Assembly: GCA_017506865.1 (NCBI GenBank) | Contig: JAFCMP010000523.1 | Coordinates: forward strand, 699,596-763,595 | From: Tribonema minus | Taxonomy: Eukaryota; Sar; Xanthophyceae; Tribonematales; Tribonemataceae | DNA length: 64,000 nt | Direction: 5' to 3' | Shown here: positions 210 through 45,396 of the stretch, one piece after another | How positions within the stretch are numbered: the first letter of the stretch is position 1 | Layout: every line of letters starts with the position of its first letter | Program-made: the position numbers and the translations under genes | The notes under the pieces: generated by a model | Database searches by the model: none | What the model saw: only the letters and a program-made list of their open reading frames with translations | Told to the model about the DNA's origin: nothing

Positions 210-3200
210 CATGCTCGCAAGCTCCGTCAGGCACGCCCTCACGTCCTGGCTGACCTTGCGCCTGTGGTCGAGCACTGATGGCGTGGGCTCGTTCTCGCTC
301 ACGAGGTCAATGATCTGACACACGCCGCGAGCAGCAGGGCAGCAGTGTAAGAAGCGTGTACCGTGTCGTATAAGCGCTGCTGTCATGTGCATGCTGATTT
401 TTTGTGGTCTTGGTCGTTGTGCAAGAGAAGTCCCCAGATTGTCAACTTCACATGGGCTGCAATGAAGGTCCATGTCTTTGTGAAAAATCGTCGATGTAGC
501 GCAACCACCTCTCCTTTATGGCGTCTGCTCGCGCTTCGAGGCTTCTGAAGTGTGACCAACATGGCTGGTGCCAAGCTCAAAAGTGCTTGTCTGAGTGCTC
601 ACACTGCCTGGAGTACACAAGCAACAAAGGCGATTTGCTCATGCGCACATGCAACAGCACGCACTGTATGAAAAAATGTAAGTGAGTAGCATAAGTGCAA
701 CTGCGTTACGCCAACCTCCGTTTCAAAAGCGTCTTACGACTGCCCGTTCACCGATATAGTCAGTGAACTGACCATGCACCGGCACAACACTACATATATA
801 CCGTATCGGCAATGTTGTTGGCGCCAGTGGGGCTGCCCGGAGCGCTGCCCAGCAGGTGCATGTTGCTGCTGCCCCTGCGCGACAGTATGCGGATGCTGCC
901 GCGCCTGCCAGCGGTGCCCAGTGGCTGCTGCGGCTCCTGATTTGCGGGGTACGCACTCTGCGGAGCGTGCAGCGGCAACACGCTGTGAGGCTGCATCACA
1001 TGTATGCCTCCACCAATGCCTTTGGTGGTATGATTCTAGTAGCAAGCGAGATGCCATCATCTGGGCTTTGTCACGCACCGAGCAAGCATAAAAAATGCGT
1101 GTAGCGGCTATAAGATGACATGGTGCAGGATCGCCATCACGCACTTCAAAGTGATTCAGAACGTACTCGTGCTCAATTCGCATACCACCGATGCTCTGCT
1201 TACCGATGCGGTACACATGGCGCAACAATGCTTGTCAGGTATATTTGAGGGCCTTCCTGCGTTTCATGTCCCTGTGTAATGTCGCACCTGAATGAACTCC
1301 ACGCCGCGCTCCCTGGGCCCATAGTAGATCAGGCGCCCTTGCCTCAGTATCATCACCCTGTTAATCTGCAAGTGGGGGGTTAACGCAGAAGGGAGGGAGC
1401 AGGAATCCGAGGAATCCGGTGGGCATATTGAGCTTTTAAGGCACAGAGAAGGCATTGTGCTGACTGAAATTCAGATGGGACACCTCGAGGGGGGGGGTGA
1501 CTTTTGGGGGACGGGCGCACTTGCAGTTGCGAATACCGTGAAACAAAGGGGTGATGAAGTAATTGATTTTTGTACAGGCGCAACTGGTGAGCGCTGAGGG
1601 TGGTGGCAAAATTCAAGTGCCTGTGCCTCCTGGTAGTCTCCGCGCATACTCATGCACTAGTTTACGAAATATCCATTAAACTCTAATGTATTCTGTAGCA
1701 TTCAAGACTGCAAGGGGTTGCCGCCAAGATGCTCAATAGGTGGACAGAAGATGTTCTGCAGTACTATGCTGGTCGCTTTCTAATTGGCTGAACATCGCCG
1801 GTGCCCAGCCAGCCTGTTGCTGAGTAATGTGACAGCACTTCAAAAACTTCTTGTACAGATCATTCCGCTCCTGCGCGCGCAGAACCGCCGCGATGCACCG
1901 CACACCGTGCTCTCCTAAAACAACGCACCTCGAGCAACCGCAACTCAGCACTGACCATCTCGAAGACCTCCGGGCGCGGCTGGTGAATGGTGAGCACAAT
2001 CGCGCGCCCGCCGCCCTGTGCAATGTCCTGGAGCACTGCCATCAGACGCAGCGATGCAGACGCATCCAGACCGGAAGTGGGCTCGTCCAAGAACAGAATG
2101 CTGGGCTCGTTGAGGAGCTCCACCGCCACCGCCAGGCGGCGCATCTGGCCGCCGCTGATCTTGCCGGTGACGCAGTCCGCGCAGGATGAGAGGTCGCAGT
2201 CCCTGCAGTAGTCAATGGCAGGTGAGTCAATGAGTGAGTGAGTCAGCGAGTATGACCTGAGCTTGCCCTGTGGTTGATGCTGGGTGAGTCAAAGAGTGAA
2301 TGAGTCAGCGAGTAAGTCCTGATTTTGCCAGTGACGCAGTCCACGCAGGACGAGAGATCGCAGTCCCTGTCGTAGTTGATGCTGAGTGAAATACAGAGTG
2401 AGTGAGTCAGCGAGTAAGGCATGATTCTGCCAGTGACGCAGTCCCGGGCAGGATGAGAGGTCGCAGTCCCTGTCGTTGCTGATGCCGAGTGAGTTACAGA
2501 GTGAGTGAGTCAGCGAGTACGACCTGAGCTTGCCCTGTGGTTGATGCTGGGTGAGTCAAAGAGTGAGTGAGTCAGCGAGTAAGTCCTGATTTTGCCAGTG
2601 ACGCAGTCCCGCGCAGGATGAGAGGTCGCAGTCCCTGTCGTAGTTGATGCCGAGTGAAATGCAGAGTGAGTGAGGCAGCGAGTAAGGCATGATTCTGCCA
2701 GTGACGCAGTCCCGCAGGATGAGAGGTCACAGTCCCTGTCGTAGGTGACGCCAAGTGAGTCAGGAAGTGAGTGAGTCAGGAAGTCACACGTGGTGTGTTG
2801 CCCATTACACAGTCTGTGCAAGATGAGAGGTTGCAGTTTCTGTGGTAGTCGATGCCGAGTGAGTCAGGGAGTGAGTAGGACTGGATTCAGTTGTCACAGA
2901 CTCTGACAAAACGTCGTCTTTCCCGGGGGGAGCATCACATGGGGAGCATACGTGGGTGAGTCATTGAGTAAGTGAGTGGGTCAGTGAGTAATGTGTGCTT
3001 TGCTGCACCAGCGCTGCATGAGGCCCGCCGTGCACTCTGCGCAACATGGTAGATTTCACAGAGTCATGTATTGCGAGCAACAACTCAGCGCTGATCGTCA
3101 TGATTGTTGTCTCGCCTCAAATTAAGAACCAAAAGTAAGCAGTTGGAAGTACTGCATGTGCAGCATATTGGCATAGTCTGGTACATAATGCAATCCAAGC

Positions 3201-6200
3201 CCATGCTAATCTGTGACAATTTGACCAACACAAATTGCAGTTTTGTTAAAACATTTATAAACTTTCAAGAGACATCAAAGCAAACTTGACAATCCTGCTG
3301 GGGCAGCCATTTCGGTCCTTGAAAGAGTGTACCGTTCGCGAGCGGGGGTGATGAAAAAAATGCACTCTGTGGTCCTGAACCCCTTCCCGTCAGTCTTGTC
3401 AAGCACAGCGTACCTGATGACTGTGGAGACGCAGTTGATTTGCTCTTCAAATGTGGTGTCCTTGGGGAGCCGCAGCAGTGCAGAGTAGCACAGGTTCTCA
3501 AACACCGTCAGGCTCTGAGAACGGACAACAGGCAGGACGTGCATGTGAGGCTTCCACTCTTCAAACCAGCACATTCAGACAATGCGCTAGTAGGATGATA
3601 GTGCATGCAGCATATCACACATGATAGTGCACACCACTGATTCACTATATATGGAGACCGTGGCCCCATGTGGCGTGAGTCTAGACTGGGAAGCATGTGC
3701 CACTGACATGCAGGTACACCTGCACATTTGCGAGTATGTTCAATACTCACATGGGCATATTCCCTGCGGCTGACAACATGGCCTGCCTAGCCTGCACCAA
3801 TATTACGAGCGGTGCCCATATGGCTGCGTCAACTAGTGACCTAGTGCCCTACTATGCGCCATGCGTAGGGAACGTGTTGCCGTGAATTTGTGGGTGCTTA
3901 TAGCAGGTCAGTGAGCGCTCAACTGCGCCCCCCATCATTGACAGGTAACAAGAGCGGGGTGGTGGTGACTAGTTAGGGTTTAGCTGGATGCCATTACCCA
4001 AATGCACTCCTACCCCTCACCAACTTGCAGTTTTGATGTTGCCAGTGAGAGCTTCAGTAGGCAGGGAAACCTCTTTTAATGACTGCCACTCCATTTCATG
4101 ACATGACCATGATGGTTACCAGCACATGCGTTTAATTCAAGGCATCGCGTTGCAAGTCAATCGGGCCGGCTGCTAGACCAGTCTGATGCCAAATCACCGC
4201 AGCTGACATGTGCACTGACTCACATTCAAGTTGGCATGCTGTTGTGGGGGGTGTGGGGGTTAGGGTTCTGGTTTATGGTTCCAGGGTTAGGGGTAGGGTT
4301 AGGTTTAGGATTAGGGTAAGGTGGTAATGCGTGCACCAATCTGAGCCATATACAGAACTTTATGCTACATGCACGCGCGCGCTTTGGATGCGAAGTGCGC
4401 AAGTACATAGTACACGCTTGAGTAACAGGATAACTGCACAGCACAGGGCTGCCAGGCACTCACCGTGATGCAGGGGACGAGGAACTGCCTGACGTAACCG
4501 CTGTGCCGCACGTAGGCGGACCTCACTTTGTCCAGCGACTGGCTGCCGACCTGCGCAGACATAGTTGAAGTTTCAGAATAACATGAACTTGACGTCAATG
4601 CCCGCTGGCTGTGGTGCCATTTTCCTACTGTTCACACAGCATCAGCAAAAGTTCATTACCTTGAGGTCTCCACCCGCTGTGGCGCATTGCGGCTTGTGAA
4701 TCTGAGTCCCGGTTCACTTACAGCTTACACAAATGGCCACACCTGCGCAGACATGTTGTGAGGTCACTGCTCTGATTGAACGCATGAAACAGCAAGCAAT
4801 GGTGCCAGTACATGCGCGCAGCGTGCAGGCAGCTGTTGCGCGCAGGTGCAGCACACTTTCAGCTGAATTTCACGGCGCAATATTTGCACACGAAGCACAT
4901 GACATTGCAATATCCCTGGCCTCGTTGCTGCAGGGGGAAAACGCCCACAACAGGAGACAACCCGCAATTTCTGTGAACCTGCCTGCTGTTTGAAAAACGC
5001 CACACTCATACCTTTGTTGACGGCCAACAATCATAGAAACTTGCTTCACCTTGAGGGGTCAACTTCATCTTCAAGTATCTGTAAAGTATGCATACCTGTA
5101 TGCTGCCTGAAAACACGCCGTGCTCACGCCTCCCCGTCAGCAGCTCCAGCAGTGTTGTCTGTCGAGCACAGCGCAATGCAGAGAAACCTTGAGAAGCTAG
5201 TAGAAGTAAATAACATGGTATCGGGCGGACACAGTCATTGACCCAGGGTGTCTGCACTTTAGCAGTGCATACCGTAACAAGGGAATAGTGCTAGACACAA
5301 GTGTGCGCGCGCCCACAGCGAGCTCGTACCTGACAGGCAAAACAAATGCCTCGAACACGGACGGCTATGCTGCTGGGGTGGGGGAGGACGCGAAGGTCAA
5401 GCACCACACCGGCACCTTGACGTCATCTTGGGCTTTTGTGCCATTCGTGCAGGAGTCGTACGGACGGCTGGGCAAGCAGACAAGCCTTTTTGTTAAGGAG
5501 TTGGCAATGCACTCAGCACTGTGCTCAGGGGGGGGGAAGGCAGATGTGTTACGCAAGGCCGGGTTAGCTAAGCGTCAGATCCTCATTGAGCTGAGCATAT
5601 CGCTGGCGCGGGAGTTGGCGGAGCGCGTCATGGCGTACACACGTGGAGCGCGAATGCTGGGCTGTGTTGCGGCGCCGGTATCCAAGCTCCTAGGGCACAG
5701 CGCAGACTAGGCTGCTGCGTTGACGCAAGCTTTTCGATTGCATAGGCAACCCGGCCTCCCTTGGGCCTTTATAAATACAAGTCCATACGTACATAATTGA
5801 CTGCCACTTGGAATTGTGCAAGCATATGTCACAATGATTTGCATTTTTGCCCGGCGTGCACATACTTTTTGAAGCAGGAAGTGTGACAACGTCTTACTGG
5901 CTAACAACTAATGCAGAATGCCATTTATAACGCACGGCATGTGCATCGTACGCAGTATGTGCAAGGTAACAATTGCAAAAAAATTTCTGACACGCTTCCA
6001 AGTACGAAAACGAATCAAAAGACCGTATACTATGTCAGCCCTCTGAAGCTACCATGTGCTATGATTTGTGCTCGTTTTGCAAAGTACGTCATCAGGCAGG
6101 AAGTCGCAGGAAGTCGCATCACTTCTGTGGAATGTTGCTCTCGGCTGCTCCCCCCCCCCCCCCTCCCCCCCACCATTCAGCCTGCATACTGCATGCATCA

Positions 6201-9200
6201 AATGCCTTTTAAGGCGTGCAGACTTCATGCACACAAAGCAGAAGTCACCTTGCCAGAGCCACTGGGCCCCATGATGGCGCTGATTTCACCAGGCAAAAAG
6301 CAGCCGCTGACACCATCCAGCAGGGGCTTGCTGCTAGGCACATCTGTAAGTGCGCACAAGAAGGCCAGTCAGTGTTTTGCTGCAAGCCGTGCTGTGTGGC
6401 ATGTTGTGGTTTTTGGACCTCAGGACCTATGCGCTTGCAGTCATTGCCGGCAATTGTAATTCCAAACAGTGTGATCCACTTCATTTCTCGCTGAAGCGCG
6501 GAGTCCGATGGCTTATTATAGCATGTCTTGTTTACAAATTTTTTTGGCAAAATATCGATACGAGTTGTCTGTTTTATTTTCCAATGCAGTGCCGTCTTGG
6601 CAATGTGCAGGGTGCGAAGGGTCACTATTCCAAATGCAGCGCCATGTTGGCAATGTGCAGGGTGCGAAGGGTCATTACAAAGCCTGCCTGCACTGAGTGC
6701 ACTCTAGAGAAGGGGCCACACCCCGAAACATTGTTGATGCATGCCTGAAGTCGAAGTTCGTCATCACCTCAACCAAACTTTCCTATTTCTGACGCGGTGT
6801 AACAAGCGTGATGAACATACACACATGCTGCAACTCCCAGCGCTTGCGATACACTCTCTGTCGTATCGCGTCGCTGTGCGCGCAAGCGCAACTTCAAGAG
6901 GTGACGCTGAACCTGCTGGTGTGGCAGCTCACGCAGAGACCAAAGTTGCATTGCTACTGCATCGTGATGCTGATGAATCTGCATTGTGATGCTGATGAAC
7001 CCGCTGTCCTGTGTCCGCTGAGCTGCCAGTCTCTAAACTGAGGATGAGCTGTGAAATCTGCGCGCACTGTGCGTTTCATGTGGCCAGTTGGGCACTGCTT
7101 TCATGGACATACGCAGGTCAGACCCTGTGAAAATTCACGAACACGAACATACATGCATGTATGATGTATGACGTACACTGCCGGGGGTCAATTACACGCC
7201 GCGCCCCGATTTCCCCCCAACCACCCCGCCCAAACAACCACACATCTGCATCTCCACCACCTGCTGAGAATCCGTTGGTATGTGCTCATGCACACAAGTG
7301 CTTACGCAGTGTAATCGACGTAACACATGCATATCGTCACTTCAAGTTGAACCAGTGTACCTCCGTTGCTGCCGGGCTCTGGATCGGGCCAGTAGTGTAT
7401 GTCGCTGAACGCCAGGCACATGCTGTTGGTGCTGCCACCAGGGGGCTTTGCCGTGGTGTTGAACATGGATCCCCAGACCTTGGCATCCTGCTTCTCCATT
7501 ATGGCAAGTCGGAAGCGCCGGCCACGGGAGATCTGCATGCCACGCATGCCATAACGGCCACAACGAAAAATGTCGATTTATCAGATGCTAAAAGTGGGCA
7601 CGCGTTCACTGCCAGAGTCAGCCAAATTACGTTGCTTTTCAGATTATCTTCCATGTGTTTAGCGCAAAACAAAACAACTGGGCCATCTTCTGAACTGCAG
7701 AGCTTGGACTGTGCAAACTCATCACCAGCCTGAGAGTCAGCCGATGACGTTATCTTCCCCATCTTGATTTTTGCGTGGCGCGTGAGTCCACTGATCTGAA
7801 ATACAGAAATTGAACTGCAAAAAGGGAATGTGCTCACTGGCAGCATGCCGCTCCGCGGTGGCCAGCCTTATGAACAGGCGGCTGCAATCAAGATCAAACC
7901 CAATCTACATTCATGCGGCAACGTGCTTAGATCTGCAAGTGTTGCGTTGAAGTCTTCCCCGTAACTTTCGTTACGAGTAGATGCTCTCAAAATAATTCTC
8001 TCTTTTTTTTTAAATCATTGGCTGTGAATCTTGAAATATTTGATGCAGTTCAAGCTTCACATGCTGAGCATGCTCCAAATCACACGGCCACCAGCTGCTG
8101 CCATTTGATTGGCCACCCGGGGGGGGAAGGGGGGGGGAGGTGCAGCTATATGTCACCAGCTGTAAATTAGTGAATTGCTGAATGTCATGGCAAGGCGATC
8201 GGTGATGCATGCTCCCACACCAGCCATTGTGACTACACAAATACTGGCCTCAGTCAACGTCCTTGTCCCCCCCGAGGTTCATCATCTCTAAAGTGCCTCT
8301 CAAGAAAGCCCCTGCAAGACGAGCGCCGAAAATTGTGCAGCTCCAGCACCTTATATGTGAGCACTTTGCAGTCGCAGAGTGGATGCTCAAATCTGCAGGT
8401 GCACAATTTGTTGAAGTTCAAGAGCTTGCTCACCACTCTGGCGCTGACGCAGAAGGCCGCAGTGAGCACTGCCACGGTGGTCCACACCAGCCAGCGGAAC
8501 GACTGCAAGTCGCGCTGCTTGCGCACGCTGTTCGTGGCGCCCTCGCTGGCGCGCCTGCAGTGGCAGCAGGCATGCACGCAAAGTAAAGATCAGTGCAAGT
8601 ACTGGCTAGCATGTGCACTTGAAGTTGCAGTTTGGCCGTGCTTTCAGCCCTCACGACCATGCTGCCATCGAAATCCAGAGACTTTGATTTCGGCACGCAA
8701 AGCCCACGTTTCAGCCTTGCGGCCATAATTCTTCCTGGACGCAAATGTGTATGCATACATGGTGGTGCAGTTTGACAAAGGTTTACGCCGTCGGCTACTT
8801 TCGACCGGTGCTACATACATAGCTGTACAACCGATTGTACTGGTTGGACTGCGGCTCTATGGATATCAACATGATCAACAACACAAGCTTGCGAATTGCG
8901 CTGACATGACAGCAATGCTCAGTATGTGAGAGCACACACCTGACCACCCAGGGGCACGTGGGGTTGCAGTTGACCCCGTTGCAGGTGTCGCGCAGGAACG
9001 TCACCGCGCCTGCAATCTTGCTCTGAGCGCTGCCCTCGAACCAAGTGGACAGCGCCGCCTTGAGCGTGACGTTGTTGGCTTTCACCTGCACACATTGAGG
9101 CTCCGGCGGTCCAATGTCAGTGCTGTGATTTAAACCTCCATTCCACCTGTCTCAGGGCGTCGGTGCCTTTCATACGTACTTTTACATAATATAGACATCA

Positions 9201-12200
9201 TAGATAGGTGCCGCTGTCTTTCTCACAGAATGAGAACGAGCACCCCGCAGTCAGTTGCCATTGACGTTGCCTCATGTGATCACTCACACCATGCTCATAA
9301 CGGTAGAGCGTTTTGCCTGCCTGTAGAGCACACCATCACGCTACACCCTTCTGTAGAGTGAGCATGTCAATTTGATCATACGTTTGAAGAGCATAGTCAT
9401 GTGTCCCGGCCCTTTCCTAGGACAGCTGCGGCGCCTGCCTCTGAACCGCGCGTCCCTGAACTATTGGGTGCAAAATCAAATGGCACCTGCACACGCGTTC
9501 TCACCTTTCCCCAGGAAGCAGGCGCCATGGCCAAGTCAACAGCAATGCCCGCCTGAGCGTTGGTAACGCTCTGCACCATGGACACGGGGTAGGTAGGTAT
9601 GCGCTGCTGCTCGGGCTCGTGCGCGTGCGCCCACTCGCATGCGTAGGACACGCTCGCAGTGCTGCAGCACGCGATCAGTAGCAGCATAGAGTGCACGCGT
9701 GACTTGAAGTGAGCAAGTGCTGTTTTAATTTCAGCAAAGGCCAGCATGGTGAAACGACAGGCTATTTTCAAAGTGTACACGGGCAACGAAAAGTGAGCAA
9801 ATGCTTTTTTCATTCCAGCAAGGTTTAAGGACCAGCATGATGAGTCACATGCTATTTGCACATAAGAAAGAAAGATATAATGGCAAGTTGGCAGGTGCAG
9901 GTGCAGGCTGCTCGTCAGATGCGCACTGACCGGCTTGCACGCCTGACGGTGCTGCAACAGTTGGCCACACAACAGCCAGCCCACTCATGACCATTTCAGC
10001 GCCACCTGAAGCTCCCATGTGGTCATCGTTCAACCTGACACCGTTCGGGAGCAGAGTGCGGTCAAAGTACCTCAACAAGCCTGAGCCGGCGCTTTCAATG
10101 CCAACAGGCGTGGGCTCCGGTAGCGGGCCTTACCTCTTCAAGTTGTCGCCTGCGGTGCCCTCGCGCTGCGGCGGCAGCGCGACGCACCCCGCAAAGTCAG
10201 GTACCGCCGCGGGCATGACCACATGGCTGCAATGACAGCAGAGAGGGCAGCATGAGCTGAGCACTGAGGTGGTGAGACCGTAACCTTACTCCTCACTTCA
10301 AGCCCATGCCAGAGTGCAACAACAGTTCAAGAAGAGCATGATAGAAGTGCTCTCAGCAAACAGACAGGCTTGGTGAGCGGAAGTTAAACACGGATTCTGC
10401 AAGGCCAGGCATCATGGCGGGCTGCACAGGGCTGCGGTGCACAGCAGATAACCATGAGCCCGCTTATGGAATACTTAAATCCATACTTCTATAATGATTT
10501 TGTCGACATGGCCTTCGTCACGGGGTCTCCACTGGTGTGAGTGGCATGCATGCCATATACCTGAAGTACTCGCAATCCACATCGTGTCATCCACGCATCA
10601 CTTTCAAATTTTGGACCAGCACAAGGCTGAGGGTTAGGGTTAGGGTTCAGGACGTGACGCCTGTTTAGCGGTTGTCTAACGTCAAGTTTCAGTGCCCGTG
10701 CGAGTTCATGCACCGCCTGCCTGCTTGCATTCAGTGCCATTATGTGAAGCGCCTGTTCACTACCCATTGGGCCCAGACACATCTACAGGTCAAATGGAAC
10801 AGTGGTCGCGTAGGCTCTACATTTGACTCGCCTGCAGCGGTGCAAGGAGAGACGCTACAGTGCTCAGCAACGTGCGCACAATGTTTGCTGAAGTGCTTGG
10901 TTTTGTTGTTCCTGTACCTGAAGCAGCTGGGCATGAAGAAAGAGGCCCTGCCGCCCGTTGCTGCAACGACGAGCGCGTGATAGCTGCGCTGCACGTCGTG
11001 AGCCATGCTGCCGCCAAATGTGCCTGGGGCATGACACATGCAGAGTCAGAATCAGAGTCAATGTCGCATTTGTCAGTGATCGGCTGTACAATCGGGACGC
11101 TGCTAGGACGACTGTGCTTGACAATGACCCCGGAGTGCAAGCAGCGGCAAGCTTTGAAGCGTGCGTGAAGAATTTGCAGGGGTATGAGCATGCTTGAAGA
11201 TTGTCAACAAAGCGTGATTGCAGTCGCACTCTGACAGAGCAGTTGCAGGCCTTGCCACGAAGCGCCTGGATTCCATATACTTCGAAGTACGTATGGACTT
11301 GTATTTATAAAGGCCCAAGGGAGGCCGGGTTGCCTATGCAATCGAAAAGCTTGCGTCCACGCAGCAGCCTAATCTGCGCTGTGCCCTAGGAGCTTGGATA
11401 CCGGCGCCGCAACACAGCCCAGCATTCGCGCTCCACGTGTGTACGCCATGACGCGCTCCGCCAACTCCCGCGCCAGCGATATGCTCAGCTCAATGAGGAT
11501 CTGACGCTTAGCTAACCCGGCCTTGCGTAACACATCTGCCTTCCTCCCCCCTGAGCACAGTGCTGAGTGCATTGCCAACTCCTTAACAAAAAGGCTTGTC
11601 TGCTTGCCCAGCCGTCCGTACGACTCCTGCACGAATGGCACAAAAGCCCAAGATGACGTCAAGGTGCCGGTGTGGTGCTTGACCTTCGCGTCCTCCCCCA
11701 CCCCAGCAGCATAGCCGTCCGTGTTCGAGGCATTTGTTTTGCCTGTCAGGTACGAGCTCGCTGTGGGCGCGCGCACACTTGTGTCTAGCACTATTCCCTT
11801 GTTACGGTATGCACTGCTAAAGTGCAGACACCCTGGGTCAATGACTGTGTCCGCCCGATACCCCGGTACCTTGAAGACGCTAGCGTCCTCATTGCGGACA
11901 ATAGAGACATGGTGCTGTCTCAAGATGCGCTGCAGGCACCGCTTTTGGGCAGTGTGTGTCGCGTTGTGCCCCCGTATGTGCTGGCTGGGGCAGCTGATCG
12001 CATGCGTGGAGGTGGGGCTCACATCACTGCACCGCCATGGGCACACCTCGCCCTGTATGCCCCACCCGTCTATGAAGATCGCAATCAAAATCATCGTGGC
12101 TGCTGCCATACTGGACATGGGCGCCGCACCCGGGCGGTCATTGGCAGTGGGTGGCACGCTCATCCACGCCATTGCCCCGGACGCACGCTGGCTGCGCAGC

Positions 12201-15200
12201 TGCGCCAGGACCCGTGCGCTAGCCTGTTGGCGGCGGCGGCTGGTGTCGCGCGAGTCACCAATAGGTGCAGCCTGCGTCGGCTTGCCCACGGCACCAGCCG
12301 AGGCAGCCTCTAGGTCCTCCACCAGGCAATCCTCGTATTGACGTCGAAGAACATTTGAAAGGCCGGCTTGTAGTCCGTGCGTGAAGTGACCGCGCCGGCG
12401 GCGGGGCACTACCTTCCTGCAGATCTCGTCAGCATAGGCCTCCCAGTCGTCGTCGTCGTCCTCCTGCCCGCCGCTGCAGCTGCTTTCTTCCGCGCTAGTT
12501 TGTGTTTTAGCGGGCGTGGAAGGGGCAGCCGCGGCAGCGGCTTGAGGGCCAGGTACGGTCGCCGCCGCAGCGGCCGCCTCGGCGCCAGGCACAATGCCGT
12601 GGGTGTGTGGGGCTGGCTCAGTGGTCACTGTCTCCGTGACGGCAGTTGCGGCGTAGATCGCTTGCACCGCAGTGGGGAGCGTCGACGCTGCGGCCGTCGT
12701 ATCTGCTGCCCACCGTAGCAACGATGCTGGGAGCTGCTCGGCCACAGCTGTGCGTGATTTTTCGCCGCCATCAGCTGTCAGCGCTCGCGTAGAGCGTCGC
12801 ACGGCCTCGATAATTGGCGGCAGTCCCTGGTCCTCGCGTATTGCGCATGAGTAGTACTGCTCTTGAAAGGGCCACAAAGCGTCATGTACCAGCGCTAGTC
12901 ATAGTATAGCCGGCGCTTGTCAAAGTATTCATTGCATACTGAACTTTCACATGACACCGTGGCCTACGGATTGGTCATGATTGGACATCGAAGTGTGCCG
13001 CCTTATCAAGAGGATAGACAAGTCTGAGACTAGCTATGAAGTACCTTTAGGTTTAGTACAACCTCCGGTCATGCACAATCTGAAGTAGTGCTGCCCAATG
13101 AACCTCAAGAGAAGGTGACTCACCCATCTCCCACACAGCGTCCACGACAGACGTGAACTTTGTCAGGTCCTGGTGGTTGACCTCAAATGCGTCAAAGGCG
13201 CTGCAGGAGCGCAACATACAGACACAAGCAGCAAAGCAGGGCGAGGCATGGCGCATGGCAACTGTTAATAGCATATCAATGGTGATGAGATGGAGGCTAC
13301 AGAGCAATAACCCTCCTCGGAAGAAAGTCATCGGATGCGTGCTACAGCCCCGTGCAAAAGCAATCAATGCGCTGCACAGAATTACTTGTGGACGTGAGCA
13401 CATGTTTTGTCATTCACTTCTTTTCGAAGACTTCAACATTTTAAAATGTGCACATGCACGGAGCCAACCAGTTGAAGTTGGCATCACGTTTTTTGTACAT
13501 ATCGCCACTTCTTCAGGCAATTCATCATACTCAAGTGAACAAACGCCACAGACAGTTTGCCAAGGCGAACACATTTGATTCAATTTAACCTGACAGAGCG
13601 ACATGTGCACGGGCGGGAGGCACAAAGTGATAATAATGTGGTGCAGTCAGTTCGACTTCTGCTATGGCAGGAGCATTTTCTGCGCCTGAAGCAGTGTGAG
13701 TTTATTGATCGATAGCAATCATACCTTGTGATGACAAACAGGTTAACTGGTGCAGCCGGCCTGTTGGACGTGAAGCTGGCAAAGCCGGCGAGGTTGAAGT
13801 AGCCCCTCTCCAGCATGCAAGCAGCCTGGCACACACAAGGCACTACAGGGTCAGCACGCAATCACCTCACCGTACGCTGAGTAGCAAACTGCAGGTTGCG
13901 TCTGATATCAAATGCGTCTGACAGGCTCGTGCACCACCAGTACTGCCAAACAACGCGCCTCTGACCTACAGTGCTCAGCATCTCACTCTTGATAATTGTG
14001 GCGGCAGTCAGCAGCTCATGGGTTCAATTGAGATGACTGTTGTTGTGGCGCTGCCAATTCAGCATCAGGCCCTAATGACACTCGCGCGTCATCTGCACAG
14101 CATGTTCACCGGCTATATTATATTCATTCCCCCCTCCCCCCCCCCCCCCCCTTGCCACCTAGCATTGTGCATGCCATAGGTTTTGGTACTCTCGTCTAAG
14201 TCCATCAGGGCCAATATTGGAGCGGCGGCTTTGCCATGACTGCATCAACGCTAATTACGACAGTGCAAAAGTGGCCGCTGCAGCTATGCTCAGTGTATTG
14301 CTGAATTTGTGAGTGTGCATTTGCCAGTGCCTTCCTGCAGCATGGGGCCATGTTCTCTGAGGTCCAAGGGCTAAAAATGCGCACCACAGTAAAGCTGCTG
14401 AGCATGGCCTCGTTTGTGGGAGACAGTGGATGCTCAAAGTTATGCGGCGCAAGGAATAAAGTAGTTTAGAGCAGCCTCATAAATCTTGGTGCTGCTGGAA
14501 TTAAAATGGCGCATTCATCAATATGCTTGTCTACCCCCCCCCCCTCCCCCCCCACTTCCAACCCCACCCCAATCCGTTACTGCAGTTATTTGTACCTGAA
14601 GGCAGCAAGGGCCGCCGTTCCATTTGTCGAAGCATGCCTTGGAGGACAGATTCTGCAGCAGGAGAGCAGCACAGTACCACCTTGCATAAAACGCAGTAAA
14701 AAACTATGCGTGCAACTCACGGTGTTCATGTTGATTGCAGACATGAAGGACGATAAGTTGACGGGTGCATTCTTTCATGTGTCTGAAAGTTGCACGTGCG
14801 CAAGAGCAACCGGCAAAACGCGTGCCAACTAGAAAACAGCAAGGAAAGCTTTACCAATCTGAGCAAATGGCTCATTTGCGAACCAGTCTCAATGGACTGG
14901 AGACATCCATTCTCAAATCATACTTCACTGGTTCATCGCAGCAGCGCAAATTCGTTCGGTCTTTGTTGGAAGTCACCACAATTGCAAGGCGCTGATTTCT
15001 TGTACGTCAAAATACTAAAAAAACACTCGAGGTATGCAGGTTTGGAGATAACGCGTGCGACAGATTTTTCCTTCGTATCAATAGAGGCACACACACGAGG
15101 AGAGTATGCGTGTGCACACCATGTTAATTATAAAAGTGCAAAACAGCATCATGTTTATTTCTGCAACACCAGCATCTCTCGGAGACCATTTGCCCAACAA

Positions 15201-18200
15201 AACGTAGGCATGTTTGCAAAACATGCCTAAACAGCATCATGTTTATTTCTGCAACACCAGCATCTTTCGGAGACCATTTGCCCAACAAAACGTAGGCATG
15301 TTTGTAAAGACAAATGGGCACTATCAAAATTTGAATGTCGAAATTCCCTCAAGTCTCTCCGGATGTATTCTGTAGAGTACTCGACTATTGCTGGCCGCAT
15401 CTTTTTCACAGATATGAACTTATTTGAGGGTAGTACCTGCAGGGTCATGTCAATGTTGGCCATGTAGCCACCGTGATTGATGAACCAGCTGCTGTCGAGA
15501 ACAACATTGAGCTCCGCCACCTGCATGCGCAATTACAGATCACGATGTTCACCAGCGTTTTGACCTGTGGTTTGCGCATTGCGCATGTCATGCTGATGAT
15601 GCGGCAGCCAAGCTGGCACATCTTCAAGTTTGGGCATACATACCCTTCCATAAAGTTCAACTTAGGACTGCAAGTGTTTGCGCATTGTGTATGTCATGTG
15701 GTGGACAAGGGCGACGCCGATGATGAACGATCAAGCTGGCGCATCCTGAGGCGTGCATACACTTCAAAAACTTCAAGGCTGCACTTCAAGTTTAAGGTAG
15801 GTCTGTAAGTGCTGTGTGATGTATAGTGAAATGTGCTGTCGTCAATGTGTGCACGAAACCTGTAGCACGATAGAGAGGCGTAAAAAACGTACGCACAGCA
15901 TGGCAGTGGCAGCACACTTTGCACTGCCCCGGCAGCTGTTTGATGGCACAGCGGACATACATTCACCTCTCAATGCAAAATACATATGGCCAACACGATG
16001 GCCAATGTCAGCAACGCTCAACACCTCACAACTCCCCCTACGTACCTGTGGCAGGCTGGAACGGAGCCACGTCATGTGGTTTATGACAGCGACGCCGCCG
16101 GCGCTAGAGCCATGCAGCATCAGGCGCGTATCCTCGTGCCAGTGCGCGCTGATCTCTGTCAGCGCCGCGCGGAAGATTGCCGTGCCGCGGAAGTGGAGGC
16201 CCCTGCGCAGGCACGCAGATAGTGACTACTTCAGCTTTCGCTTTGCAGTCAGCGCGTACCAAATGAAATAATTTTTGTAATTGATCGTGCGCATGCGCGC
16301 ATGCTTGTGAAGTGCTCAAGCTTGAACAGGGCTTGCACACTTTGGGTTTTATCGCTCTTTTCAAAGGTGCGAGCAGTGCTCAATGGCATTCAGTCGTGAC
16401 AAAAGGTATGTGTGGTGTTCAGTTGGCACCAGTGCAGCGAGCACACATGAGCCATGACATTGCCATACTTCTACGATGGCATTGTCATATAATGCATAGT
16501 GTAAACAGAGAGACCTGAAAGCTGGTGAGCAGATTCACCCTAGCAGGGGTGCTTCTGCAGCACGCTCCAAGGCTACAAGCTGACGGGGATTGTGTTTACT
16601 GGCGATACAGCCATTGCTCAAATTATCTCAGTATCTTCTATACGTTTCAAAGCATTATATCTGTATTACGTTGACATTTTCTTTGAAGCTGAACTCACCC
16701 TGTGGTCTCGGAAGCTGGGGCCTCTCCCAGCCACACATCCTGGCTGCGCAGACAATAAAAAAAGAACGTATGCTCAATAAGTATGGCGCGGAAGTGCAGA
16801 AGTCAGTTTGCCTTACAGTGCAACATTGTGCCAGTTTGCTGAGAAATAAAACTTCATCTGTGACCATCTCCAATCATCAGAAGGGTGACTCAAACATCAC
16901 CTATACAATACCTCAGATTTGCGGGTAAAGATAATTTGTTGTTGCAGGGAGAAAAACGGGTTAGGGTTAGGGTGGCGGTTAGGGGATCGATGAATTCATG
17001 GGAGCTTCTGTCATTGATAGTGGCAGCATTTGTTGCAGTCGGCTTTTGGACATTGCAGCATATGATTCGGGTTACAGAGCGGCCAATGCCTGAGCGTAGT
17101 GTGACACACGCAGGAATATTGTCGATTGTAGCTTTACGGCCTCCGCTGTACAACTTCCTACACTCCAAGACGGGCTGTCACAGTCCAAAATGTACGCAAA
17201 TGATACTTTGAAGTATGTAGCAATGCATGTATGCCACAAACGCGTTGTTCTTGTCCGCGGTAAGGGGATTCTCAGCCCCAGGAGGAGGAGCATGTTTCTA
17301 GTTGTACAGCAAATGTAAGCACGCATCACCGTACTGACAACCCATCAGAAGAATAGCTGCCTGATATACCTGCAGTATACCACAAACGCGTGGTTCCAGT
17401 CCGCGGTGAGGGGGTTCTCCGCGGGGTCCTGTGACAGCAGTGTGTGCCCCTCAGACTCCAGGGGGTATGCCTTCCTGTCGCTGGTGGTCCATAGCCAGGG
17501 GTACTCGTCCACCCTTTTCAGGCACTCCGGCAGCGTCCTACACCCTGATCATACGATGAACAAAAGACAAGCAGTCGCAATGGCTGCATTAAAGACTAAT
17601 GGCGGAGGTTGTGCAGCTCACCGAAGACAAACAGTCTCACTGGCTGCAATGGCAGAGGTTGTGCAGCGTGGCATTTCATTCTTCGCGAGTGGCGTGAAAA
17701 GCTGGCACGCATGGCGTCATTTGAGCTGGCGGGACCTCCAGGGCTGCAAATCCTGCTTCATGACGCTAGGCCTGTCATTGGCGCACAGGCATCTCCTGTG
17801 TTCACCATAGCTGGCCGTGATGGCTGTGCTGGCGAGTCACCGTCGGAAGTGAGAGCACGTGAAGTTGAGGGGCTGGGCCCTCTCTGCATGCACTGGAGTT
17901 GATACGGTTTAAAATGTACATCATCAAATGAAACAAAGAATATGTAAAAAGCCTTGACCGCTTTGATTGTCCTTAGAATCGAAAGGCCTATGAGAGTTGA
18001 TAAAGCGCGCTGTAAGTGAAGGTGGCCATGATGTGCAATGTCCACGGCTGAAAATTGACAAGTCCTCACAACAAGTGCTCAATTATAGGCTTGTGAGCTT
18101 AGAAGCAGCGCGCACGTACAATATGATGCTCCTGTCAAGTAAACCAGACTGGCTAGATCTGCTGTGGCTTGTGCACGCATCTGAGCACAAGCAGATGATT

Positions 18201-19287
18201 GGGACACGCCGAGCTAGAGCATATGCGGCGTGGCAAGACTGAGTTGTGTGTAAAATCGTGGCTTCAGTACACGTGTGAAACGCAATCAGCAGTGTTGCTT
18301 TAATGATTCTGAGGTTGACAAGCTAAATGCATGCTAATCCTGCTGTGAAGGGGCTGCAAAAAGCAGGCACCACTCTGGTTCAAGTTGTGTTCTAAGGCTC
18401 GGCAAATATTGTGGGACTTCTTGGGTCGCAAATTTTGCCCATGTGAGTGGCGCAGCCAAGGCAATTTGCGTGACCTGCTAGAGTCAGGCAGCGACACACT
18501 GGGCATGCTGGTAATAGTATGCTCGCTCTCAACAAAGGGCATAAGCGTGGATTGTTGGGAGGTGAGTCAACCCAGCGCTACTTGCAGCTATAGCAATGCT
18601 TTGAAGTACATGACTTCATGGTGGCCGCATAGTGATGCCGACCTGTATTTGGAAACATGACTCAACACTTGGCACAGGCATCTTGTGAGGAGAGTTGTTC
18701 ATGAACTGCAATGCAATATATCCTACATATAGCGTCAGTATCAAGCATGTGCTTCTCGCGGGCTCACAGAGAACATGGTGGTGTGGATTTAAATCTGCTC
18801 AGGCAGCAGCAGCACTCACATCGACGCCAATGCTCATGTGACTAACCAATCATTGACTTGACTTGCAATCAGCAACTCTGGCCAGAAACGTGTAGACTAA
18901 AGCTATGCTGACGATAATTTCATCTTGGCGTCCATATGTTCTTCAATGGCATGCATGCTTTAAACACTGTTGGCAACTCACATCAACCAGATACATTTCT
19001 GCATCCATGCAAACCTCACTAAGGCGTTTGACAGCTGTATCAGCGCCAATTAACAGCATGATAGCGGTGTAAAGGCACCTACCGCCTCCTCCCATGATGG
19101 ATATGGCCCAATCGCTGCTGCCTGTTGCACTATGCCTCATGTAGTAGGCCCCAGGCGTGCCGTCGCCACAGATTGCACCCAGGTTTTCCGCGTTTGTGAT
19201 CTGGTGCAGACGCATCAGATCCGCTGCGGCCGACGCAGCACAGCATCCCAGCGCCAGCAATGCTGACAGCTTCCTAGCTGGAGCCAT
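210..19287 (-). CDS. NOTUM/pectin-acetylesterase-like domain fused in frame to an ABCG half-transporter (3' end off window)
   Basis: Exons in order: 19287-19083, 17544-17370, 16743-16699, 16202-16046, 15520-15437, 14652-14596, 13960-13871, 13825-13725, 13200-13124, 11023-10918, 10226-10134, 10070-10035, 9661-9505, 9085-8940, 8554-8434, one or two short linker exons not fixed (candidates near 8260-8290 and 7745-7789), then 7532-7361, 6343-6249, 5158-5096, 4550-4464, 3514-3414, 2202-1956, 1365-1288, 957-802, 314-210. All listed junctions keep phase. Residues 1-22 are a signal peptide. Residues about 30-510 are a NOTUM/PAE carboxylesterase: GSSAGG (Ser175), SAFDAF (Asp308), CFSH (His367) and C-terminal CNPTCP. 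A membrane segment (about 531-548) leads to the ABCG nucleotide-binding domain: Walker A GPSGSGK, signature ISGGQ, Walker B FLDEP, H-loop TIHQP, and the NIADTIIDLV linker. The transmembrane half lies beyond position 1. The likely role is deacylation of a wall or secreted substrate coupled to export; the substrate is unknown. The joint at 8434-7532 is the weakest point. Confidence 0.82.
1956..2202 (-). CDS. ABCG exon with signature, Walker B and H-loop
   Basis: This 247-nt exon encodes RDCDLSSC, then ISGGQMRRLAVAVELL (ABC signature and following helix), SILFLDEPTSGLD (Walker B and D-loop) and AIVLTIHQPRPEVFEM (H-loop histidine). All catalytic positions expected of an ABCG ATPase are present, so this nucleotide-binding domain looks functional. 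Its 5' edge, the acceptor side, is the source of the repeat array at 2210-2860. Confidence 0.9.
2165..2870. repeat. Minisatellite made of copies of an exon acceptor edge
   Basis: Units of roughly 90-160 bp repeat a block containing GACGCAGTCC, GATGAGAGGTCGCAGTCCCT and runs of GAGTGAGTGAGTCAGCGAGTA. On the minus strand each unit re-creates a CAG acceptor followed by GGACTGCGACCTCTCATCC, the first codons of the ABCG exon that starts at 2202. Five or six decaying copies lie upstream of the real acceptor, inside the intron 2203-3413. Confidence 0.85.
4256..4322. repeat. Interstitial telomere-like tract
   Basis: Degenerate GGGTTAGGGTT / GGGGTAGGGTTAGG units lie in an ABCG intron. Similar short tracts occur at 5-31, 10627-10650 and 16960-16986 (all G-rich on the plus strand), and a C-rich one at about 37383-37402. 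Confidence 0.7.
5217..5792 (+). mobile_element. 3' fragment of a non-LTR-like retroelement in an ABCG intron
   Basis: This 576-bp segment carries the end of an open frame (5288-5710, ending LLGHSAD) and an AT-rich 3' tail ending TCCATACGTAC. It matches the minus-strand segment 11287-11862 over the same 576-bp length; I noticed only two mismatches by eye. It is 5' truncated, as target-primed LINE copies usually are, and sits in the intron between exons 6343-6249 and 5158-5096, opposite in orientation to the other copy. Confidence 0.8.
6588..6680. repeat. Short tandem duplication
   Basis: TTGGCAATGTGCAGGGTGCG followed by AAGGGTCA occurs twice about 52 bp apart, in the intron between exons 7532-7361 and 6343-6249. 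Confidence 0.75.
11287..12900 (-). mobile_element. Non-LTR-like retroelement copy, C-terminal part
   Basis: A 502-codon frame (12877-11369) has a low-complexity Ala/Thr/Ser-rich N-terminal half. The C-terminal half has a CPWRC...HAISC...H zinc-knuckle-like motif, RADTVIDPG, VLDTSVRAP and ESYGRLG blocks, the layout of the post-reverse-transcriptase region with a restriction-like (PD-(D/E)XK) nuclease seen in some LINE-type elements. No reverse transcriptase motif is visible, so the copy is 5' truncated. It lies in the intron between exons 13200-13124 and 11023-10918. Family assignment is inference. Confidence 0.65.
15143..15308. repeat. Recent tandem duplication of about 80 bp
   Basis: Two adjacent copies start at AACAGCATCATGTTTATTTC and run through CCCAACAAAACGTAGGCATG with only one or two differences. 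They lie in the intron 14653-15436 of the NOTUM-ABCG gene. Confidence 0.85.
17228..17285 (-). repeat. Decayed copy of the donor edge of the 17370-17544 exon
   Basis: The plus-strand text ATGCCACAAACGCGTTG, followed by a TCCGCGG-TAAGGGGATTCTC block, matches the last about 50 nt of the NOTUM exon (ACCACAAACGCGTGG, TCCGCGGTGAGGGGG) with scattered substitutions. It lies downstream of the donor in the same orientation. Confidence 0.7.
19083..19287 (-). CDS. First exon of the NOTUM-ABCG gene: signal peptide and start of esterase
   Basis: ATG at 19287 opens MAPARKLSALLALGCCAAS, a typical hydrophobic signal peptide ending in an AAA region. It is followed by CGDGTPGAYYMRHSATG and an IMGGGG stretch, which correspond to the DGSxxxYY and LEGGGWC blocks of pectin acetylesterases and NOTUM. 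Splicing at GGCG|GTAGGT to the next exon gives GGGGC instead of the usual GGGWC, so the family tryptophan is replaced by glycine. The mature enzyme should face the lumen or cell exterior. Confidence 0.8.
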
Positions 19288-20500
19288 GATTGTCGTTCGC
19301 CCTCAACGCCAAGTGCGTCTCGCCGCGGCTGCCGCTCCTACTGTGGCTGTTGCGATGACGGCAAGCAGTCCGTAACGTGGCTTGTTGTAGGAGCTGTGCA
19401 AGCACCACCTGCAACAGCACAGCGGCAACTGTTTCGATTTGCAGGTTTAACCAGCATTTTTTCGATCATCGGATTGGCCGAAGTGTGCCCAATGGTGGCG
19501 CCTCAATCGTAGCTGCCGAGGACTGACTTGACGTCACTGCATCTGCTGCTAGCACACGGAGAACCAAGAATCTCTACAGTACATTGGCAGTAAAGCCACC
19601 CCAACACAAATATTGCAATAGGTTGGAGAATGTTGGCAGCAACGATCAGCCGCAAGCGTCAGCTTGCTTGCTGCCACACGAGGGTCACATGTATTGCAAT
19701 AAATCCATTCCTATGCTGCCACTGACATGACGGTGATCCCCCCAAATGCAAGATACTTGAGGCGTTCAGCGCGAGCAGTATACTACTTGTACCTCTTGCA
19801 GTGAGCAGTGCGCCCCTGCCTGTGAGTCTATGACACTTACTATCGTATCAACTGGCAGTCTCCTGCAACTGCCACACGTGCACAATTTGCAAGCCTCGGG
19901 CAAGTGCAGTCGCGCCACTACCAGCAGTGAGCATCACCTGCAGCTGCAGCGGCAGACGCAACAAACGCATGGCATGCTGCATACTTGCCTCTTGCAGCCA
20001 TGACAGGGTTTGACACATTCACAAGTGCCGCCACAGCGGATGGACTCATGTGCATATTAGTGCTACAGCTGGCGCTGCGTTGACGTTCACACTTCAACTG
20101 CAGCAGTTTGTGGCGTCTCCGTGTGTGTTCCTGCTCTAAGTCATCTCAGCTCACGACCAGGCGATGCGCAATCAAGTAGAAGGTCATCCCGGCGCTCGCG
20201 AGGAAAAATCAGCAAACCACCAGCGTCTGATGAGCGCTGCTGAAACTGCTCGTCTGCTGACATTGACATCCAGCAGCAGTGCTCCACAAAACGCGCCCTG
20301 TCACAATCCAATTACGCATATCTCAGCAGCTCCCCACGGGTGTATGTACACAGGATCCCTCCCCCCCCCACCACCCCCCCTGTGCGCAGGCCGAAGCGCT
20401 TGCAGAGCATTCAACTTGGCTGCCCCCAGGCCCGAATCTTGGCCTGGCCCCGCCCCCCCCCAGGGACATGTGCGTGAGCCCCCCCCCCCCCTACATATCC
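19288..20500. other. Intergenic region upstream of the NOTUM-ABCG gene
   Basis: I see no convincing exon here. The stretch holds scattered C-runs (20366-20398, 20452-20462, 20480-20492). It probably contains the promoter of the minus-strand gene that starts at 19287 and the 3' untranslated end of the next gene, which stops at 20501, but no clear core-promoter motif is visible. Confidence 0.5.
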
Positions 20501-22521
20501 TCACTTGCGCACGATGACCACCTGTTGCGGTGGGTGCCGCGCCTCGCTGCTCGTTTGCGGGCAGTCGCAGCAGCAGCGGCAGGGGCAGCACAGGATCACC
20601 ACCAGCGCGTCGCACACGGTGGTGCAGATCTGGTCCAGCAGCTTGCATGGGCAGCAGAGGACGTCAGTACAGCACCCCATTCTGGCTTCGACTTGTGGTA
20701 GCTTGTGCGTTTACAGGTGCTGTTCAACTGCAGTGGGACGGTTGAAGGCAAAGGGGGGGGGCAGGAGAAAGGTCAGATCATCTTCGAAGTGGTGAAGCAC
20801 CACTTCACAAGCATTCATGTTGAAATCGTCGATTTCATGGCGGCGTGATGCAAAGCATGACCTGTGAATATGAGATTGTCCGCTGGCAGCTCGTGACAGT
20901 GTGACACAATGCGTTACATGTAATTACTAAAATTGAAAAAATATCAAGAGGGGAGAGAGTAGAGGCGTGAACCATTTTATATCTACTTGCTGTGCTGAGC
21001 ACCCCACCAGCTGTGCAGAGGTTGGACCAGGAACTGGTGGGCTAGCAACTCTAAGGCCAAGGAGGGCAGCGGACGCCGGCGTTGTACGCAGTCCTCCTGG
21101 CAATGATCCTTTCTCCGCAGCCAAACTGGCCTCCCGGTAGCAGAAACACTCCAATTATGGTGTGCAGAATGTGAGCACCTAGAAACTACTGAAAGCACCA
21201 TGTAACACGTGCGCAAGACCTGCGTACCACGCATGTGAATTGAACGCTTCCACATTTTGCGCGTCACCATATTGTCGTGTGAACTGCAAGTTGTCAGAGC
21301 CCGCGCTCAAGAACAGCAGGACATGACGTGAATAGAAACGTTTAGCTAACTCTTCACCTGTGATAAGGTGATACCTGTGGCGTGGATCAAAATCTTTTGG
21401 CGTTTGCGGAACTGCCCAAATTAATCGAATTATGGCTAGGGGCTCTTAAACTAACTGAGGTTAGCTACAATTATTGCATGAGCATACCACTAGAGTGCCT
21501 CAGAGCGCTTTGCAGATGTTAGAGAACAGGTGCAGTGGGAATTACAGGGCCCGTATGCATGACCCGAAAGGCTGCACAGCAGGCCATACAGTAAGACTGA
21601 CTGAGCGTACACTTTTTGGCGGTGGTACCTTACAGCAGCGCAAACGAATTGCACCTCCAAAAATATACGATATTGGACTTTGCCCACTTGACAACATGCA
21701 ACTGCCAGGGACAATCAACATGCACACTCATGGAGATGATGTCCATACGTCTGAAAGAATGAACAACATTGCAGAGTTGAGAACCGTGTGAGGTTGCGGC
21801 GGGCAAGGAACTTGCAGAGCGGCATCCTAGCATTCTTGCGTGCACTTTCAATCAGTGACGGCGTTTACAATTCATTTATCACATGCAACACATAAACGAG
21901 GCTGTCCTGCAGTGACCCAGGTATTGCTCACTACATGTGCCCAAGCTTCTGTAAAGTCCACCTACTCGAGCATCATGTTATTGAGTAAGAATACACATGC
22001 AAGCGCATGCGCAGTGGAGTCAGTGCTTTGTAGCGCCCAATGCTGATGCTTCTGAATAAATTCGAACCGTCGTCGTGTGCGGCACGGAAAATGACATCTA
22101 CATCAACACTGTCCTGCTAGTAAATTTGGGGGTAAGGGAGTACTTGCCGCAAAGCAGTGATCACCACCAGGTCTTTCACTTGCGCAGACCTGCACCAATC
22201 TGCTCACAACCGAGACATGCATCTATTCAGCACGCATCACCAACTCACACTGTGCAATACCAGGATGACACGGCTGAAAGAAAAGAATATGACACGCGAG
22301 CGAATTTCCATGTAGCGGCGCATTGACCTGCTATGATAATACTCGAGACGTGCTGCATCCTGTCGGCTTGATCGAGTGCAGAATTTGTGCATGTTTACGA
22401 AAAAATGGCTGGGTGGGTACCTTTCAATTTGGGATACCTATCTGAATCGAGCGGCTGCAAAACCACTTGCCTGACACTCCTGCAGCCCCAGCTTCTCCGA
22501 ATGCTGCAGGCGCTCCGTGCT
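20501..22521 (-). CDS. Unidentified minus-strand gene, exons only partly defined
   Basis: The terminal exon reads LLDQICTTVCDALVVILCCP and then a cysteine-rich tail (CRCCCDCPQ) ending QQVVIVRK and TGA at 20503-20501. Possible upstream exons are about 21013-21145 (Ala/Pro/Gly-rich) and 22521-22471, which encodes STERLQHSEKLGLQECQ between a CAG acceptor and a CAG|GCAAGT donor. The last piece weakly resembles the linker before a Qb-SNARE motif, but I could not find the SNARE helix, so no function is assigned. The exons may belong to more than one gene. Confidence 0.3.
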
Positions 22522-43975: not shown

Positions 43976-44049
43976 GTAAGGCGTGAGATGGTGCACAGTG
44001 CGGTCGCTTCTGCTCTTTGGCATGTGAAGAGTCCAACAAAGTGATTCCA

Positions 44050-45396
44050 TGACTTCCATCAAGTACACTGCAATGGGCCGCAGCCCAGTCGAACACGAGC
44101 CCACTCGCTGTGCCTGCCAGCGTTGCAGCCATCTACGCCGCCACAACCGACACAATCGCATCAGACGCGGATACAGCACCGCGCCCCGCCCTCGCAGCCC
44201 CAGAGCCCCACTGCAGCCTCGCAGCAGCTGCTGCTGTTAGCTCCTCCGTGCCCGCTAAACCCCCAATTAGCACGGAGAGGCAGCACAGCAGCAGCAGCAG
44301 CGACGATGGGGACGATTCTCAATCCCCCGCGCAAGACTTCACCTGCGGACTGCAGGCGCGTCTGTCACGCATACTGCGCCAGCGCCAGGAAGCAGACCTG
44401 GTGCACGACCTTGAGGTGACGGACGCCGACCCCGGTGACCCACACCTTCGACGACAGCAAATTGCGGGCAAACGGGCACTGGCGCAGCTGCGCAGCCAAC
44501 GCGCGCCCGGCGCCATGTCGTGGCTCAGCATGCCCCTGGGGGAGACAGCGATGTCCACTGCCGCAGCCGCGACCATGCTGCTGGTCAACCTCATGGTGGA
44601 CGGCTGGAGCATCGGCGGTGACGCGTGCCCATGGAAGTGCAACGACGCGCCCACGGGCACGCACGCCATCAGCTGCTGTGCACAGCACATCCGCGGGCAC
44701 AACGCAACGCACACCGGCCAGAAGTTGTGCCTCCAGCGCCTACTGCGGTCACACCATGTGTCTGCGGTCCGCAATGAAGACGCCAGCATCTTCAAGCGGC
44801 CAGGCCTCCGCGCGGACACAGTCATCGACCCTGGCTGCCTGCACTTCGGTGGGGACGCGTACAAGGGCAAAGGCGTTGTCCTTGACACGACTGTGCGTGC
44901 CCCGACAGCCAGCAAATACCTCGCGGGCAAGTCCAATGCAGCCACTAAGGACGGGCACACGGCGGACGTGGGGGAGAAGGAGAAGGTAGCTCACCACGAT
45001 GGTGCGCTGAGCTCATCATGGGTGTTTATTTTCGACAAAGGACCAACCTCAGGAACTTCAACTTTCAGCATAAGTTCAACTTTGCGCTGCAAGGCTTAGT
45101 ATGGTGCACTCAGCACTGTGCGCAGGGGGTAGGGGGGCGCAAATAAAGCGCAGAGCAACAGCCAACAAGAAACAGATAGTTGCGGCGCTGAGCAGGTCGT
45201 TGGCGCAGGAGCTCGCCGAGCGCGTCATAGCGTATGTACGTGGTGCGGAGATGCTTGGCCACAAAGCGCACCCGGTGTCGGCGCTGCTCGGACATGGCCC
45301 TGTTTGAACAGGGCCGCCCACAGATCCCTTATTTTTTCCACGCAAACAACCGGCCTCCCTCGCGGCCCTTTTTAATACGAGAATATGAGTACACTG
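44050..45396 (+). mobile_element. Diverged non-LTR-like element copy with 3' tail
   Basis: The frame from 44110 carries CPWKCND, HAISC, RGHNATH, RADTVIDPG and VLDTTVRAP blocks matching the element at 11287-12900 but clearly diverged in sequence, so this is a second subfamily. A separate downstream piece (45101-45307) matches the C-terminus and ends LLGHG. The 3' tail ends TTTTTAATACGAGAATATGA. It is 5' truncated, with no reverse transcriptase motif seen, and lies next to the last recovered exon of the sugar-dehydrogenase-like gene. Confidence 0.65.

Follow-up and report, generated by a model that had tools for sequence, protein, structure and literature searches.

The minus strand of the analysed window, a stretch of 64,000 nucleotides of Tribonema minus DNA, carries a 34-exon chain with an uninterrupted reading frame of 1417 codons, in which a PAE/NOTUM-type esterase is followed by an ABCG transporter. 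Both halves are real and intact. We consider the chances evenly balanced that this chain is one gene encoding one esterase-ABCG membrane protein. The local splice and codon signals at the join fit two separate genes better than a fusion.

The exons have been placed manually from the sequence and then checked by script. The chain runs from position 19287 of the window to −7629 (L003:2367), beyond the left edge, with a single stop, located at its end (L003:2367), and with neither internal stops nor frameshifts. The introns are GT-AG in 32 of 33 cases and GC-AG in the remaining one. The first-pass annotation had the exons in phase from the ATG at 19287, and for the exons where they were placed the script check bore this out. 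Its length of 550 codons for the first fifteen exons matches approximately the position of Met550, whereas exons 1-14 and exons 1-15 comprise 538 and 595 codons, respectively. Exon 7 (13871..13960, 30 codons, phase 0/0) is uncertain and optional, with an acceptor score of −0.1, and skipping it keeps the frame. An earlier exon candidate at L003:8794-8776 was dropped, as it breaks phase.

Pfam domains were matched along the chain in the order PAE, ABC_tran and ABC2_membrane. The PAE match (PF03283) spans residues 19-215 (E = 1.4e-39; 136.6 bits, cut-off 26.6) and covers positions 3-196 of the 355-position profile. ABC_tran spans residues 604-754 (E = 3e-23; 83.4 bits, cut-off 25) and ABC2_membrane residues 925-1126 (E = 2e-7, above the cut-off). 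The PAE and ABC_tran matches exceed chance, since their bit scores lie far over the Pfam cut-offs.

The esterase begins in exon 1 (19083..19287, minus strand, as are all exons of the chain) with the ATG, a hydrophobic signal-like start at residues 7-25 (hydropathy 1.74) and the PAE N-terminus. The PAE domain continues through exons 2 (17370..17544; GGGGC, AENP and YCS), 3 (16699..16743; QDVWLG), 4 (16046..16202; nucleophile elbow GSSAGG with Ser175), 5 (15437..15520; LDSSWFINHGGY), 6 (14596..14652), 8 (13725..13825), 9 (13124..13200; Asp308 within SAFDAFE), 10 (10918..11023; FFMPSCFS) and 11 (10134..10226; His367 within SHVV, the Ser codon being split by the junction). Exon 12 (9505..9661) is an insertion relative to NOTUM, exon 13 (8940..9085) encodes the CNPTCP block, and exon 14 (8434..8554) ends with the hydrophobic segment LVWTTVAVLTAAFCVSARV (hydropathy 1.76), in phase 0.

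When the whole esterase part was aligned with human NOTUM, whose C-terminal portion we have verified against PDB, Ser175, Asp308 and His367 fell exactly on the NOTUM triad. These residues and the CNPTCP block (position 489) are thus where the first-pass annotation had put them, and the PF03283 match together with the triad alignment agrees with its NOTUM/PAE class. The N-terminal half of the esterase matches NOTUM in PDB (E = 3.7e-24). The C-terminal half searched alone gave no significant match in Pfam (only DUF6457 at 0.024, below the cut-off) or in PDB (only Spondin-1 at 0.96). Aligned locally with NOTUM, this half scored 75, more than any of 1000 shuffles, which averaged 32; in a semi-global alignment, 7 of 1000 shuffles equalled or exceeded its score. 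Calling the protein NOTUM-like holds for the fold family and the triad but not for the Trp-Tyr pair that follows GG in NOTUM, which is Gly-Gly here. This pair has a role at the lipid pocket of NOTUM. Because the GGWYC of NOTUM aligns with GGGGC, a NOTUM-like lipid pocket is unsupported. Catalytic activity is probable, with a pocket unlike that of NOTUM. An exon-by-exon search of the 158-Mb assembly found, within its limits, no PAE gene other than this one.

The transporter part begins in exon 15 (7361..7532), which opens with ISRGRRFRLAI, a flank that reaches Met550 (ATG 7499-7497). Walker A lies in exon 16 (6249..6343), and the nucleotide-binding domain (NBD) extends through exons 17 (5096..5158), 18 (4464..4550) and 19 (3414..3514), exon 20 (1956..2202; signature SGGQ, Walker B and H-loop) and exon 21 (1288..1365; NBD end). 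Exons 22 (802..957) and 23 (210..314) form a linker, and exons 24-34 lie beyond the window, in L003, with the transmembrane domain, a C-terminal tail and the stop, which makes the transporter a complete one. None of its ABC motifs is disrupted (Walker A GPSGSGKTT at 621, SGGQ at 727, Walker B ILFLDE at 746, H-loop at 784). Both the intact ATPase and the transporter class had been proposed on first reading and are upheld here, the NBD (604-754) being followed by ABC2_membrane (925-1126). In PDB, the ABCG part matched Pdr5 (2e-48), ABCG25 (9.5e-44), ABCG1 (1e-43) and ABCG2 (4.5e-38).

If the chain is one gene, a signal peptide would direct the serine esterase into the lumen or to the outside, the one helix behind it (residues ~518-540) would cross back, and the ABCG half-transporter, ATPase and then transmembrane domain, would come after the helix. 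By analogy with ABCG half-transporters in general, dimerisation would give the pump two esterase domains on its exit side, and these could clip acyl groups from the cargo or from nearby membrane material or matrix. We infer the exon 14 to exon 15 splice, the topology, the dimerisation, the substrate and any coupling. Such an ABC exporter with its own exit-side serine esterase would be a single molecule that deacylates and exports a lipid, a lipidated protein or an acylated glycan. It would have arisen when an Adp1-like ABCG acquired the single PAE/NOTUM gene detected in this alga, which replaced its Cys-rich lumenal part; we regard this fuller proposal as tentative, falling somewhat short of an even chance.

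Several observations favour one protein. The frame stays open across all 34 exons, from ATG to stop, and ISRGRRFR behind the hydrophobic segment would fit a stop-transfer signal with a basic cytosolic flank. Reading through past exon 14 adds 59 codons before a stop at 8256, and this tail looks non-coding, as its score (−0.27 bits/codon) is below that of all 34 exons (lowest 0.05). Intron 14 is of ordinary length (901 nt, rank 26 of 33, median 590), and the nearest coding-like blocks of the neighbours are more than 0.9 kb off: upstream at ~4.9 kb, or at ~1.25 kb should a small Cys-rich ORF there count as a gene, and downstream at ~1.1 kb. Blocks of the upstream neighbour match Vps52. The small ORF is short and very Cys-rich (MGCCTDVLCCPCKLL..) and lies just upstream of the esterase gene (window ~20500-20680, minus strand). 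A further argument for one protein is a 958-codon frame on contig C37, where an ATPase is preceded by a Cys-rich N-terminal region and then a hydrophobic segment. In CpG and skew, intron 14 was not separable from the other introns. It contains no AATAAA or ATTAAA, which is uninformative given base rates of just 0.18 and 0.22 per kb.

The join itself argues the other way. With the splice sites of this gene as the reference, the donor of exon 14 scored 5.9 (rank 26 of 33; 52 of 1227 decoy GT sites were as good) and the exon 15 acceptor only 3.0 (rank 30 of 33; 321 of 1243 decoy AG sites were as good). An alternative in-frame entry to exon 15, at 7487, scored 1.8. The 33 bases (11 codons) before Met550 have an intron-like coding score of −3.15 bits, a value as low being found in 2 of 128 exon 33-mers and one as high in 27% of 2992 intron 33-mers. 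Hence, the single esterase-transporter chain of the first-pass annotation stands as a possible in-frame chain, but its exon 14/15 splice is unconfirmed and the acceptor is weak. The fusion is further disfavoured by a strong acceptor close to the exon 14 donor, by in-frame ATGs at 7547, 7538 and 7499 (the last with A at −3 and G at +4) that could start a separate ABCG gene, and by the distance from Met550 to Walker A, 71 residues, which would be that of a normal half-transporter.

These signals suggest two tandem genes, a reading to which we assign slightly less than an even chance: a secreted PAE/NOTUM-type esterase would end just past exon 14 with a hydrophobic tail, as a GPI-type or single-helix anchor, and an ordinary ABCG half-transporter would start at Met550 or at ATG 7538/7547, with in-frame ATGs at the usual distance from Walker A. 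The acceptor at 8392 scores 9.9 and lies 41 nt after exon 14; splicing to it gives a terminal exon (8387..8392, minus strand) that ends the esterase with Ile-stop. A second strong acceptor, at 8311 (9.7), gives GLS-stop. An internal acceptor of at least 9.7 within 150 nt of the donor occurs in just 1 of the 32 other introns, and intron 14 holds three internal acceptors of at least 9.0, with 0.66 expected from the other introns. The weak acceptor and intron-like codons of the fusion junction point in the same direction, and AtPAE10 and AtPAE12 have predicted GPI anchors, according to PMC5465549. Against two genes, the intron before the stop would be just 41 nt long and the terminal exon only two codons, and the sole other intron that short (45 nt) hinges on the uncertain exon 7, the next shortest being 318 nt. 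A 3' UTR, a promoter and a 5' UTR would also have to fit in ~890 nt, and the tail has an Arg near its end, which is unusual in a GPI signal. That a misassembly placed the two genes side by side, or that one of them is a pseudogene, we regard as very improbable. Two rDNA copies of the assembly differ by many indels, and repeats such as the young retrotransposon fragments in introns 9 and 16 could mislead an assembler; however, 1417 codons without frameshift or stop and canonical splice sites speak against an artefact, as does intron 14, where no repeat copy was noticed by eye.

The young LINE-like fragments lie at 11369-12898 of the window (intron 9), at ~5220-5790 (intron 16, other strand) and at ~8620-8690 of L003, the latter flanked by a 12-base repeat, and by eye they have a common 3' end. 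A 349-residue piece of the element gave 116 scored matches (of 2385 first-look candidates), each with 99-100% identity, some of them in open frames of ~2980 codons or more. The two rDNA copies (C300 and C303; L047, L048) are many small indels apart, which suggests decayed copies or long-read errors left uncorrected. Within 43666-45036 on the plus strand of the window, a coding-like block at 43666-43947 matches GSDH (E = 5.4e-06), and the next one (44074-45036) by eye resembles the retrotransposon ORF.

As to the role of the esterase, two rbcL-like pieces were found in large contigs, C334 (L044) and C112 (L045), the latter sitting by eye in an intron of an apparent XPD helicase gene. The translated rbcL piece matched the PDB Rubiscos 25hn (4.8e-34), 6ftl, 5mz2 and 1bwv ~50 bits ahead of others, such as 1gk8 (2.6e-17). 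We take 6ftl and 5mz2 to be diatom Rubiscos, 1bwv to be red-algal and 1gk8 to be that of Chlamydomonas. By its sequence, the plastid rbcL is red-type and the alga is not green. Therefore, pectin need not be the substrate of the esterase. In appearance, the 18S fragments of the assembly are ochrophyte-like. In stramenopiles, a PAE/NOTUM orthogroup is tied to phagotrophy as a digestive enzyme, as described in PMC8163842. Thus, the plant and wall-polymer framing given on first reading has to be used with care, given the red-type plastid and this digestive association. The esterase, fused or not, could serve a mixotrophic alga in digestion or in the lysosome instead of acting as a wall enzyme, which we hold to be plausible though doubtful. 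The same paper has the Pectinacetylesterase/NOTUM orthogroup marking a phagotrophic lifestyle among 30 stramenopile genomes, and the red-type plastid also favours such a role, but a membrane-bound form at a transporter would be atypical of digestive enzymes. Roles at the wall, on lipidated proteins and in digestion may each apply.

We have searched for relatives of both halves. The best NBD match in the assembly outside this gene was on contig C37 (45%). There, at C37:278000-286200 (L031), a 958-codon stop-to-stop frame contains an NBD and, as judged by eye, a hydrophobic segment and an N-terminal region rich in Cys. The Cys-rich region is EGF-like by eye and gave no Pfam match; further pieces suggest, again by eye, a full-size ABCG. 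The layout of an N-terminal part, a helix and an ABCG thus probably exists elsewhere in the assembly, with the caveat that this stretch may be of other origin because its G+C is 0.68, against 0.53 for the window. In an NBD tree of 7 rows, with no Adp1 or ABCG24 row, the tie to the C37 Cys-rich paralog had support of 69/77 and there was no clear grouping. A motif scan of 19 ABC loci found LDEP in four, one being the window's own gene, GLDA in this gene and both C37 ABC segments, and GLDS in C522; because the tree lacks a clear grouping, we have not used these motifs as clade evidence. Pattern scans, which reach close relatives only, found no relative among viral contigs with the PAE and NBD parts, nor among genome contigs with the PAE part. 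The plasmid scan returned two Burkholderia esterases, whose identity (27.0 and 24.6%) was too low for Asp and His to be placed. No relative with an esterase-ABCG fusion was found in the viral, plasmid and genome contig collections, which do not comprise eukaryote genome sets. In the titles and abstract openings of the open-licence literature searched, a PAE-ABC or PAE-ABCG fusion is unreported; if one protein, the combination would be without precedent there.

Compared with known systems, the esterase belongs to the fold family of human NOTUM (PDB 4uyz, 4uyu; a CE13 carboxylesterase), with which it has in common the Ser-Asp-His triad and the motifs YCS.DVW.G and CNP.CP. It differs in the Gly-Gly in place of Trp-Tyr and in ~70 additional residues after the catalytic His. 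Human NOTUM is secreted and unfused. With the plant pectin acetylesterases (CE13, PF03283) the likeness is the PF03283 match above the cut-off and the Ser/Asp/His order, but the plant motifs GCSxG, NxayDxxQ and HCQ, as given in PMC5465549, are absent, GSSAG, TSAFDAFE and SHVV standing in their places. Like canonical ABCG transporters, the second half has an NBD followed by a transmembrane domain and intact ATP motifs. In plant ABCG24 and ABCG28, the NBD is preceded by an additional lumenal part and a single helix; the comparison with such N-terminally extended ABCG proteins, made on first reading, holds. The yeast Adp1 clade is likewise similar in combining extra sequence with an NBD-TMD half-transporter, and its fungal members bear added unique sequence, most commonly EGF, according to PMC9426558. 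Where the added part of Adp1 and ABCG24/28 is EGF-like or Cys-rich, a PAE domain is found here instead, so that the extra part would be an esterase if the two halves are fused. If they are two genes, a PAE/NOTUM esterase lies beside a normal ABCG, which is of modest interest; if they are one protein, the Adp1/ABCG24-28 layout would have gained a novel variant, and ABCGs with an added lumenal part would gain a testable job, in which the added part acts on the cargo.
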